Origin: a virus
Strand: one strand, 5' to 3'
Virus record (IMG/VR): IMGVR_UViG_3300046373_000063
Coordinates: 1-22,868 of that record
DNA: 22,868 nt
Of the stretch, positions 5,845-20,090 are shown in pieces. Both the position numbers and the translations under genes were made by a program. The number at the start of each line of letters is the position of its first letter. The first letter of the stretch is position 1. Under the pieces are notes generated by a model. It searched no databases. It saw only the letters and a program-made list of their open reading frames with translations, and was not told the DNA's origin.

Positions 5845-6158
5845 GCCGCCCTCCCGAGTTTGTCCGATCGCGCGAGCAAATCGGCGACTTCTTCGGGGCG
5901 GTAGCGCTCCAGCTTCACTTCCATCTCAACGCCCTTATTTCCCTTCGCCGCTTCGCGCTTCACTTCAGCGCACGCCCGCTCGATGGCGAACTCGTAGGCG
6001 TCCATGTCGAACCATGCGACGTTCGCCCATCCGATACTGACGACCCACAGCTTCACCCAGCCCGATTCTTCAATTCGGCGCTTGCGCGCGCGGGCCGCCT
6101 CGATAAAGAAGTCCAGCTGGTCCTCGTCTAACTTGTCGATGTATTCGGTCGTGCTCAC
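5841..6158 (-). CDS. Hypothetical phage protein, 105 aa, GTG start
   Basis: The protein starts at GTG 6158, which overlaps the TGA of the upstream gene (GTGA); AGAAAGGAAAG stands upstream as the ribosome site. The sequence is helical and charged: LDEDQLDFFIEAARARKRRIEESG, then a hydrophobic strand (VKLWVVSIGWANVAWF), then YEFAIERACAEVKREAAKG and a C-terminal YRPEEVADLLARSDK. No known motif is visible. The ribosome site is part of a junction repeat shared by four neighbouring genes. Confidence 0.72.
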   Translation of the reverse strand: MSTTEYIDKLDEDQLDFFIEAARARKRRIEESGWVKLWVVSIGWANVAWFDMDAYEFAIERACAEVKREAAKGNKGVEMEVKLERYRPEEVADLLARSDKLGRAA

Positions 6159-15686: not shown

Positions 15687-16169
15687 TTATGCGGCTTCGC
15701 AGTACACATTTCCCGTTTTGTGGCGCGCATGAATCGTGTGGATGACGTCGATCAGCTCATACCGACTGGCGTGGTCTATCTGCGCCTCCAACACCTGCAT
15801 CGCTTCACGGACAGCGACCAGCGCGGGCCCATCAAAAACCCAGCGGCCGGTGGCGTCGCCGCGTTTTTTCGCGCGCCAGCAGCCGTCAAGCGCCAGCCGT
15901 ACCTGGTCCTGGTACTCGCGGCCGAACCCCTGTTCGGTCAGCACCATCGCCATGTTCATCGCCGTGATCACGATCGCCATGTGGTCGGCCAGGCCGGCGC
16001 CGCGCGCGATCAGGTCCAGCGACGCCCAGTTGTCGACCATCAGCTTGTGCTTGTCGCGGTCGATCATCGGCAAGGCCTTGTTTTTTTCCATCTGCCAGCG
16101 CGCGACTTCGGCCAACTCGATCGAGGACACCGGCAGCGGCCGGGTTTGCGGGTTGAATGCGGGTTTCAT
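15687..16169 (-). CDS. Conserved-looking phage protein, 160 aa
   Basis: ATG 16169 overlaps the TGA of the resolvase gene (ATGA). The longer open frame to 16535 is shadow. The sequence begins MKPAFNPQTRPLPVSSIELA and is mainly helical: WQMEKNKALPMIDRDKHKLM, then HMAIVITAMNMAMVLTEQGF, DGCWRAKKRGDATGRWVFD and a C-terminal HTIHARHKTGNVYCEAA. The Trp/Met-rich helices look like a compact helical fold. Coupling to the RuvC-like gene suggests a function in recombination or DNA processing, but no motif proves this. Confidence 0.76.
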   Translation of the reverse strand: MKPAFNPQTRPLPVSSIELAEVARWQMEKNKALPMIDRDKHKLMVDNWASLDLIARGAGLADHMAIVITAMNMAMVLTEQGFGREYQDQVRLALDGCWRAKKRGDATGRWVFDGPALVAVREAMQVLEAQIDHASRYELIDVIHTIHARHKTGNVYCEAA

Positions 16170-16669
16170 GCTGCCTTCTCCTGTGGGCCGCGCGCGGCGG
16201 CGGTGATGGCCACGCCGAGTGCTGGCCATGCGTGACTGGATACGCCGAACAGCGGGCCCGGTTGCGCCTTGGTGCCGATCTGCGGTGTCTTGCCTCCGCC
16301 GGTGCGCGCGAACAGGTCGAGCAGCGCCTGGCGCACGTTCGGGTCTTTCGCGCGCGGGGTGCCGCACAGGTGCAGCTTGACGTCCTTGCGGTATACCAGT
16401 TCGACCGCGCACGGGGCATGCCACGCCTGCTGGAATCGACCGATCCAGACGCAGGTTTCGAACACCTCGCGACCGACCGCCATGCCATAGCTCGCGATCA
16501 TCTCGATGCACAGGCGGTAGCCGTTGATCTTCCAATGATCGCGCTGCACATAGGCCAGCATCTCATCGTTCGGCATGACGCCCGACGCGATCACGCACGT
16601 TCCGTCGTACACACACCATCCCGATTCAGTCGTGCCGGGGTCGATCGCCAAAATGCGAACATCAGCCAT
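16166..16669 (-). CDS. RuvC-like Holliday-junction endonuclease
   Basis: Structure-specific nuclease of the RNase H fold expected to resolve branched replication and recombination DNA before packaging. Of 167 aa, motif I ILAIDPGTTESGW carries Asp10 and motif II CIEMIASYG carries Glu56. A basic/acidic region follows (YRKDVKLHLCGTPRAKDPN), then the terminal SHAWPALGVAI. In canonical RuvC the last motif is H-x-x-D-A; here His146 is present but the expected Asp is Pro149, so metal ligands must come from elsewhere (Asp109 or Asp118 are candidates) or activity is altered. Length and order fit RuvC-like phage resolvases. GAGAGAGA lies upstream of ATG 16669. Confidence 0.85.
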   Translation of the reverse strand: MADVRILAIDPGTTESGWCVYDGTCVIASGVMPNDEMLAYVQRDHWKINGYRLCIEMIASYGMAVGREVFETCVWIGRFQQAWHAPCAVELVYRKDVKLHLCGTPRAKDPNVRQALLDLFARTGGGKTPQIGTKAQPGPLFGVSSHAWPALGVAITAAARGPQEKAA

Positions 16670-18399: not shown

Positions 18400-19149
18400 T
18401 TATTGGCCGCGGAAGCTGGGCCAGTCAAACGTGCAAACGAAACTGTTTTCGCGCAGGCGGTCGTCGACGCGCGATCCGACGAAATCGGCCAGCTTGTCGA
18501 TCGACTGGTTCGTGATAACGACGACCGGTTTTCCCTCGTTGTAGCGCCGGTTGATCACTTCGGTCAGCAGCAAGTTCGATGCGTCGGTGTCGCGCTTGAT
18601 GTCCACTTCGTCGAGCATCAGCAGGTCGAACTGAATGAATTTCAGTATCTCGCCTTCCTCCGTCTTGCCCTCGGTGTGGTAAGACGCCTGGATCTCGGCG
18701 ATCATCTGCTTGACCGTGCAGTAGCGCACCGTCATGCCGAAGTTGCGGATCAGTGCTTCGGCCAGCTCCGACGCCAGCAAGGTCTTGCCGGTCCCGGCCT
18801 CGCCGGTCAGCACCAGGCCCGCCCACCGCTTGGCGCTGGTGATCTCGTCGCGAAATTCCTTGACCCGGATGCGCACGGCTTGCTGGTCCTTCGTGTGCGC
18901 CATGAAGCGCTGGCCGCGATACTTGGTCGGCACCTGCGACACCTGCAGCAGCCAGTCGATGCGGCCCTCGCGGTAGCGCAGGTCGTCGGCGGCCTTGTGC
19001 TCGACCATGGCGCACTCGCTGCAATGCCAGATCGTGAAGGCCACGCCACGCGGCAGGTACAGCGGGCGCTTGCCGTGCACCGGGCACTCGCCTTCGTGGA
19101 CCTCCAGCTTGCCGAACTGGCCGGCGAGCATATCGCCCAAGTTTTCCAT
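18400..19149 (-). CDS. DnaC-like helicase loader (lambda P analogue)
   Basis: AAA+ ATPase that loads the replicative helicase at the phage origin. In 249 aa: an N-terminal likely zinc site (Cys22, His25, Cys43, Cys46), Walker A GEAGTGKT (116-123), Walker B FDLLMLDEVD (174-183), sensor ITNQ (212-215) and the DnaC-type arginine finger region RVDDRLRE (227-234). This is the DnaC/IstB architecture. It lies 11 nt downstream of the initiator gene, giving the lambda O-P order. It differs from lambda P, which lacks Walker motifs, so it belongs to the DnaC branch. AGGGGG stands about 10 nt before the start. Confidence 0.94.
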   Translation of the reverse strand: MENLGDMLAGQFGKLEVHEGECPVHGKRPLYLPRGVAFTIWHCSECAMVEHKAADDLRYREGRIDWLLQVSQVPTKYRGQRFMAHTKDQQAVRIRVKEFRDEITSAKRWAGLVLTGEAGTGKTLLASELAEALIRNFGMTVRYCTVKQMIAEIQASYHTEGKTEEGEILKFIQFDLLMLDEVDIKRDTDASNLLLTEVINRRYNEGKPVVVITNQSIDKLADFVGSRVDDRLRENSFVCTFDWPSFRGQ

Positions 19150-19160
19150 TTCATCGCCCC

Positions 19161-20090
19161 CTAGAATTTAATGTCCACGTCCAGATCCGGCACGACGGTC
19201 CCGGCCTTGCGCATCCCCTCTTCCATCGCCTCGCGGCTGCTGGTGTGATCGATGCCGGTCAGGTTCCATTTCGTTCCCTGCGGCCCGGTCTTCGCCACCG
19301 GAGCTGGTGCTGCGCGGCGCTCGACCAGCCGATCCCACTGCTTACGCAGGGTTGCAGGCGACTGGATGTTCGACGCCCAGAAGTGATCGAGCTTGGCCCA
19401 CTGGAACAGCTCGCAGATCTCGCTACGCTTGCGCTTGTCGATCTCGCGCATCTTGCGGATGTCGTTGGCCCAGGCATCCCAGTTCGGCGTCTTGGCCGTT
19501 GCATTCACGCCCAGCACCATGTCGAACATCACCCGCGCCGCCTCGTAGTCCTTCGGATCGCCTTTCTTGCGACTGTCCGAACGGCGGTCTTCACCACGAC
19601 GATCATCGTCTTGCCCATCCTCTTCGCCGTCCGGGCTATGCTCGGACGAGGTTTTAATGGGTTTACTATCTTCTCTTCTCTTCTCTTCTCTAGTCCGCAT
19701 TTTGTCCGCATTTTGTCCGCAATTATCCGTGACATCTTTCGGACTTTTTCGGCTGTCCCGCTTGCGCTTTTGGTCTTCCGCACGCCGCTTTCCTGATGCC
19801 CCGTTATGCTCGTCAAAGTCAGGCAGCATGAGGGTTTCAGCCCCATCGAACAGCAGCCATTCGGCCTCAATCATTGCTCCTGAAAACCCTGGCCAACCGA
19901 TGATGTGGTCCAGCGCTTCTGGTGTGTAGCCATACAGCTTGCCATCGACTGAATGCGTGTCGAACACGGACCAGACCGCATGCAGTCCGCCGATCGCGCG
20001 AAATTTGTCCGACTTTGTTGCGGACAAAATGCGGACAATTTTCGGATGCGTTTGCAGACTAAGTCGCATCTTGATCCAGTCACCTGCCAT
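19161..20090 (-). CDS. Phage replication initiator (lambda O-like)
   Basis: Binds iterons and starts phage DNA replication. The N-terminal 100 residues (MAGDWIKMRLSLQTHPKIVR, then FRAIGGLHAVWSVFDTHSVD and LDHIIGWPGFSG) have the winged-helix pattern of phage initiators. Residues about 98-180 are a charged low-complexity linker (KRRAEDQKRKRDSRKSPKD, TREEKRREDSK, DDDRRGEDRRSD). Residues 180-309 form the C-terminal domain with a Trp-rich helical region. The linker DNA contains iterons and a purine tract, as in lambda O. GGGGAGG precedes ATG 20090. Coupling to the DnaC-like gene supports the assignment. Confidence 0.87.
   Translation of the reverse strand: MAGDWIKMRLSLQTHPKIVRILSATKSDKFRAIGGLHAVWSVFDTHSVDGKLYGYTPEALDHIIGWPGFSGAMIEAEWLLFDGAETLMLPDFDEHNGASGKRRAEDQKRKRDSRKSPKDVTDNCGQNADKMRTREEKRREDSKPIKTSSEHSPDGEEDGQDDDRRGEDRRSDSRKKGDPKDYEAARVMFDMVLGVNATAKTPNWDAWANDIRKMREIDKRKRSEICELFQWAKLDHFWASNIQSPATLRKQWDRLVERRAAPAPVAKTGPQGTKWNLTGIDHTSSREAMEEGMRKAGTVVPDLDVDIKF
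19669..19735. repeat. Iteron cluster A with pyrimidine tract, probable replication origin
   Basis: Plus strand: a TTCTC-type tract (about 19669-19690; GAGAA on the minus strand) is followed by three 11-bp units. In minus-strand reading these are TGCGGACAAAA, TGCGGACAAAA and a variant. A degenerate unit (ATCCG) and TTCGGAC follow. The cluster lies in the linker part of the initiator gene, and an AT-rich patch (TTTTAATGGGTTTACTA) is next to it. This is the lambda-ori layout of iterons plus asymmetric purine/AT-rich region inside O. The protein there is hydrophilic linker, which tolerates such repeats. Confidence 0.78.
20004..20047. repeat. Inverted iteron cluster B near initiator start
   Basis: The plus strand carries TTGCGGACAAAA and TGCGGACAATT (20018-20040), followed by TTCGGATG. 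A reversed TTTGTCCGA stands at 20004-20012. A 21-bp stretch (20018-20038) is identical, in inverted orientation, to 19702-19722 of cluster A. It is within the region coding for the N-terminal domain, where the amino-acid constraint would not by itself create these units. A second initiator-binding site, perhaps for autoregulation, is likely. Confidence 0.72.

Follow-up and report, generated by a model that had tools for sequence, protein, structure and literature searches.

The initiator gene and the repeated sites within it

The stretch of DNA analyzed here, referred to as the window, is a complete viral contig of 22,868 bp. According to PHROG profiles, BLASTP and a structure model, positions 19161-20090 (minus strand) hold a phage replication initiator gene encoding a protein of 309 aa. 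Residues 1-214 of this protein match phrog_2509 ('replication initiation protein', E=1.5e-52) and its C-terminal half matches the O-like families phrog_391/277 in PHROG profile searches. With BLASTP, residues 177-281 were found to be homologous to the C-terminus of lambda O (44% identity over 106 aa, E 1e-24), and no meaningful alignment was obtained between the N-terminal domain and the N-terminal half of lambda O. The AlphaFold model consists of a helical N-terminal domain with a beta-hairpin (aa ~10-90, pLDDT 93-98), a disordered linker (aa ~120-175, pLDDT <50) and a helical C-terminal domain. The arrangement of elements in the N-terminal domain and the matches of its model in BFVD, which are predicted phage primosomal and replisome-organizer proteins, suggest a winged helix; the term is used with caution, since a fold search with this domain in the PDB gave zero significant matches. 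The adjacent gene (18400-19149, minus strand) encodes a DnaC-like AAA+ helicase loader (phrog_50, DnaC-like, E=3e-44; IstB_IS21, E=7e-16). From its location, which is that of P in lambda, it would be the partner of the initiator and is probably the functional counterpart of P. A RuvC-like Holliday junction resolvase (phrog_1770) is encoded on the same strand ~1.7 kb past the loader gene (16166-16669, minus strand).

In gene sense (minus strand) the DNA encoding the linker reads AATTGCGGACAAAATGCGGACAAAATGCGGACTAGAGAAGAGAAGAGAAGAGAAGATAG, with AATTGCGGACAAAATGCGGACAAAATGCGGACT followed by the tract AGAGAAGAGAAGAGAAGAGAAGA. Three GCGGAC words are present in 11-bp steps, at 19715-19720, 19704-19709 and 19693-19698 (minus strand), the first two 11-mers being near-perfect and the third matching at 8 of 11 positions. 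The word at 19693-19698 is 1 bp away from the tract, a homopurine pentamer repeat of 23 bp (19669-19691, minus strand) that starts one base after the last unit and encodes REEKRRED; a short AT-rich patch (19651-19668, minus strand) comes after it. These elements correspond to the initial annotation of the locus, which described three 11-bp units next to a pentameric purine tract and an AT-rich patch (19669-19735) in the linker of the initiator gene. Two degenerate inverted units extend the array upstream, in gene sense: CGTGAC on the plus strand at 19728-19733, i.e. gene-sense GTCACG where the family has GTCCGC, located 13 bp from the first direct unit; and TCGGAC on the plus strand at 19739-19744 (GTCCGA in gene sense, one mismatch), 11 bp beyond the former. 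The whole array, designated cluster B, spans 19693-19744 and has the layout <<>>>, with steps of 11, 13, 11 and 11 bp and both inverted members degenerate.

A second group of GCGGAC/GTCCGC words, cluster A, is located at 19985-20036, in DNA encoding the N-terminal domain and ~290 bp from cluster B. It consists of two GTCCGC words in gene sense (20031-20036 and 20020-20025, plus strand), one gene-sense TCGGAC with a single mismatch (20007-20012, minus strand) and one gene-sense GCGGAC (19985-19990, minus strand), the latter within the codons GGC GGA CTG of the peptide GGL. The layout is <<>>, with steps of 11, 13 and 22 bp. Repeat analysis revealed a perfect 18-bp inverted repeat between the two clusters (20019-20036 in A, including both of its inverted words, and 19693-19710 in B). 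Throughout the 22.9-kb contig, at least three GCGGAC/GTCCGC words within 70 bp are found in clusters A and B only, and the same is true of Salmonella phage epsilon15. The initial annotation had equated the origin with the three linker units and overlooked cluster A; the structure is one of two clusters on one grid.

Conservation of words, spacing and tract

The repeat in the linker cannot be attributed to the protein sequence. Synonymous resampling was done keeping the protein and using the codon usage of the contig itself (3000 replicates): the observed period-11 score was reached in 0/3000 resamplings, the tract was produced in 0/3000 and a perfect 18-bp inverted repeat similar to that observed in 1/3000. 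Codon choice in relatives is equally restricted. The EKRRE peptide is invariably encoded as GAG AAG AGA AGA GAA in 68 distinct relatives, with AGA for all 136 Arg residues (136/136); outside the tract, AGA makes up 87 of 1432 Arg codons. Within the iteron part, Ala-6 is GCG in 51/52 cases, Ala-9 exclusively GCA or GCT, Asp-7 GAT in 36/37 and Asp-5 GAC in 62/62. These fixed codons support the previous proposal that the linker peptide is a by-product of the DNA repeat. Nine genes in which the tract is read in another frame were considered as proof of conservation at the DNA level, an argument that does not hold for the tract and was discarded there, since (GAGAA)n gives a cyclic EKRRE in whatever frame it is read; it is still valid for the iteron adjoining the tract, which gives RT versus SGL.

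Relatives were gathered by protein similarity in viral contigs, species genomes and phage records, and separately by the tract alone. The initial annotation had raised the question of whether homologues keep the units at the DNA level, and by a lenient count (two or more iteron-like words preceding the tract of the linker) they are kept in 88/88 distinct homologues selected by protein, 84/88 of which passed a strict test for the tract. The possibility of a new iteron type, also raised there, holds only in part: the GCGGAC/GTCCGC word is present as well in epsilon15, phiPSA1 and many prophages, and no paper describing it as an iteron was found in a search of mostly open-access literature, judged by titles among the matches listed, so that its novelty is provisional. 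In other lineages the word is different (GTAACG, GTCACG or GTCTAC, among others), and in most of them it is present in A as well as in B. Whatever the word, spacing is the same, 13 bp for inverted and 11 (or 12) bp for direct arrangements, and the last word of cluster B is mostly 1-2 bp before the tract. The distance between the centers of A and B is about 290 bp in the word group of this gene and 211-223 bp in other groups. Layouts vary between genes; two inverted words followed by two direct ones is the commonest, and <>, <<, <>> and >>> are also found.

The distribution of words was analyzed in 81 distinct relatives (at least 10% different). GTCCGC/GCGGAC shows two sharp peaks relative to the tract, at about -360 to -280 (A) and -80 to 0 (B), with almost zero words between the peaks or beyond the tract. 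Cluster A accounts for 260 words and cluster B for 252; shuffling codons within each gene gives 46 (maximum 64) and 45 (maximum 63), respectively. At least two copies of the gene's own word are present in A in 79/81 members of this group. For the other lineages the word was assigned from the linker alone and then sought in A, where it was found at least twice in 28/33 genes of the GTAACG type, 12/13 of the GTCACG type and 3/4 of the GTCTAC type; in the four groups, 2/81, 5/33, 1/13 and 1/4 relatives, respectively, lack cluster A by this count. Two loci with rare words, L207 (GTCCGAC) and L234 (GTCCCC), have the same word in A and B, and L200 and L271 have zero copies of their own word in A. 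In some relatives extra words encode insertions in the N-terminal domain, such as MRPQDVQT in L008 and VTRNVTRNVTV in L144 and L147, which indicates that DNA sites have lengthened the protein. Insertions of these kinds occur in L008, L010 and L021, and in L133, L144, L147, L162, L240 and L254.

Proteins with N-terminal domains at least 60% identical share the same word in 10,317/10,324 pairs, as would be expected if the word belongs to the N-terminal domain, although linkage within the gene alone would give this count. More than one word is found in 4/6 of the C-domain families with several members, and one and the same linker is followed by C-terminal domains of different families. In a tree of N-terminal domains the words group by clade (20 changes vs 54 when shuffled); given that linkage within the gene is enough to produce such grouping, the tree shows only that words have changed. 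Specificity residues were sought from the association between word and alignment column, and this approach was rejected as confounded with ancestry.

The tract is a putative DNA unwinding element. The AT content in the 40 bp from the tract start is 0.61-0.62 in the relatives, and the least stable 60-bp segment of the gene is centered at the tract in 137/145 of them. When viral contigs were scanned for exact copies of GAGAAGAGAAGAGAAGAGAAGA, at least 120 loci selected by the tract only were obtained. Among the matches listed, one 6-mer is repeated three or more times within the 71 bp upstream in 82% of 90 distinct, fully flanked upstream contexts, versus 6% downstream; a count on 92 contexts gave 83% upstream, 4% downstream and 2% elsewhere. 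In tract-linked loci, the own word gave 172 matches further upstream versus 12 downstream. The N-terminal families of the tract-only loci differ, and include Lin1244_N-like and phage-replisome-organizer-like proteins. Other homopurine repeats are flanked by iterons too: 51% for GGAAA, 47% for GAAAA, 52% for a period-6 purine repeat and 19% for period 4. (GAGAA)n had the strongest association among the five repeats scanned, and the idea that GAGAA is unique was discarded; since iterons also flank repeats of other periods, what these loci have in common is a coding-strand homopurine stretch and not period 5. Unrelated repeated words (AACCGC, AAGCAA, GCGTCA, GAGGAC and many others) are often located just upstream of homopurine repeats of periods 4, 5 and 6 in viral contigs L279-L642, which may constitute a wide field of undescribed candidate origins. 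Eight loci (L154, L172, L184, L190, L241, L251, L262 and L267) have the GAGAA tract and no evident repeated word upstream; their initiators start with M(Y/R)KIKNWEKFNLY or similar, and their sites, if any, would be elsewhere or degenerate. In searches of mostly open-access literature, no paper was found on the EKRREE peptide in connection with phage, and for the tract in connection with phage replication the sole match was a paper on a eukaryotic helicase.

A putative bipartite origin and alternative explanations

We consider it probable, at roughly 85%, that the locus is a bipartite iteron origin of phage replication, wholly contained within the initiator gene. The N-terminal domain of the initiator would bind the 6-bp word GTCCGC/GCGGAC in the palindromically arranged clusters A and B, and the bound initiators would bring both clusters together by looping or wrapping, which the ~290 bp of gene DNA between their centers would allow. 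The resulting strain might open the homopurine tract abutting B, and the lambda-O-like C-terminal domain, along with the neighboring DnaC-like loader, could then deliver DnaB to the exposed strand. The GC skew fits an origin at the tract only loosely: its minimum lies 1.2 kb away in epsilon15 and 0.5 kb away in Pusillimonas T7-7, and in Xanthomonas phage CP2 and this contig it is not near the tract.

An alternative that we regard as unlikely is that the words are operators at which the initiator, or a different regulator of the phage, acts on its own gene or on copy number, with the origin elsewhere and cluster A perhaps serving as a control or handcuffing site. The position of A near the gene start, the fact that the tract touches B only and the existence of clusters outside the gene in CP2 would fit such a function. 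However, B is fixed against the least stable tract, in the same order as in the proven origin of lambda, and this abutment and order are better explained by an origin than by an operator ~350-400 bp inside a gene. The additional clusters in CP2 (L277) are formed by CGTTAC/GTAACG words and located at 5976-6017 and 34142-34184, far from the initiator gene, with four words each and no purine tract seen alongside. They are possibly second binding or control sites, and their location away from the initiator gene implies that a cluster is not by itself the mark of an origin.

That the inverted words form a hairpin in mRNA or single-stranded DNA, as a primosome-assembly-like or RNA control element, instead of being double-stranded protein sites, seems very improbable. 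The commonest layout, with two inverted and two direct words, does fold strongly in L026 (z -4.5), but the linker of this contig folds weakly (z -1.9), the layouts of many genes (<>, <<, <>>, >>>) lack a full hairpin, and the grid is present a second time ~290 bp away. Least probable of all is a mere by-product of coding for a charged EKRRE linker, or of recombination at a hot spot for C-domain exchange, with no origin function: it would account for C-terminal domains of different families following the same linker and for a peptide kept in any frame, as (GAGAA)n always gives a permutation of EKRRE, but not for codons that are invariant where the protein allows alternatives, words that differ between lineages with constant spacing, or a cluster A within the N-terminal domain and distant from the junction.

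A broader generalization can be put forward, tentatively and as possible rather than probable. Across unrelated N-terminal families there might be one unrecognized origin rule, made of exchangeable initiator words set at fixed 11/13-bp spacing right next to a homopurine tract on the coding strand, in many cases accompanied by a second cluster of the same word in the DNA of the N-terminal domain, so that the gene would be a movable unit of specificity plus start site. The tract might act via a triplex, thinkable here because (GAGAA)n is a mirror repeat, or via a purine-RNA R-loop during transcriptional activation, instead of simple AT-rich melting. A circular record of 41,205 bp from Pusillimonas sp. 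T7-7 (L276), deposited as a plasmid, carries the two-cluster module together with an integrase and phage structural genes and is possibly a phage-plasmid or the circular form of a phage; with those genes aboard, it was rejected as clean proof of autonomous replication.

Should the origin reading be correct, replication origins could be read from sequence in many uncharacterized phages and prophages, since word, grid and tract are all within one gene. It would also mean that one coding sequence satisfies three simultaneous demands, namely a protein fold, two clusters of sites and an opening element. The natural exchange of words offers material for working out how phage initiators recognize their sites, and looping of DNA at phage origins becomes open to a direct test through the matching second cluster.

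Comparison with known replication origins

In iteron plasmids such as RK2, P1 and F, an AT-rich region where the DNA opens is adjoined by initiator sites repeated in helical phase (PMC5043065), and the locus described here resembles them in having repeated putative initiator sites beside a region of that kind. In contrast, plasmid iterons are mostly direct repeats that lie outside the coding sequence of rep and are recognized by Rep monomers (RepA/TrfA-type) of unrelated families, whereas here the sites are inside the gene, mixed inverted and direct, and the protein falls in phage initiator families.

Closer parallels are found among phages. Gp23 of epsilon15 belongs to the same N-terminal family (55% identity) and its gene has the same word in two clusters (starts at 35233-35279 and 35512-35547), with the tract at 35555. 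In the epsilon15 record gp23 is annotated just as a replication initiation protein and no origin is annotated; no description of this origin was found in a search of mostly open-access literature. The Stx lambdoid phages 933W and P27 have iterons inside O, and extra iterons lengthen the protein by 13 aa (PMC7466680), as they do the N-terminal domain in relatives of the L008 and L144 types. Unlike this locus, six iterons in a single array are described there, and no cluster in N-terminal-coding DNA is mentioned in the parts consulted (PMC7466680). The linker of YdaU, encoded in the Rac prophage of E. coli K-12 (L273:4620-5477), has repeats of the GTTCAAACA type, which make it a candidate oriJ (the origin of Rac), and no GAGAA tract.

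With respect to lambda, the similarities are the repeated sites in the linker-coding part of the initiator gene (here cluster B, 19693-19744), the strand-asymmetric, easily melted purine tract beside them (19669-19691), the homologous O-type C-terminal domain and the loader gene adjacent to that of the initiator. The order is also the same, iterons being followed in lambda by AAAAGAAAAAAGAAAAGA (the lambda DUE) and the O C-terminus; a purine-asymmetric, A+T-rich region on the coding strand after the iterons has been reported in that phage (PMC5043065, citing Schnos 1988). As for the differences, lambda has four iterons of ~18 bp in a single array, each of them an inverted repeat to which an O dimer binds, whereas here the words are of 6 bp and form two clusters on an 11/13-bp grid; lambda words are confined to codons 116-142, without an A cluster; the tract is (GAGAA)n and the loader is DnaC-like, that of lambda being P; and no alignment to lambda O is obtained for the phrog_2509 N-terminal domain. 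The description of the locus as lambda-ori-like in the initial annotation is well supported by the iterons, the purine tract and the lambda-O-like C-terminal domain, and covers about half of the structure. The locus in all likelihood works like ori-lambda, and it is not a plain member of the lambda type, from which it differs in N-terminal domain, iteron format and the presence of a second cluster.
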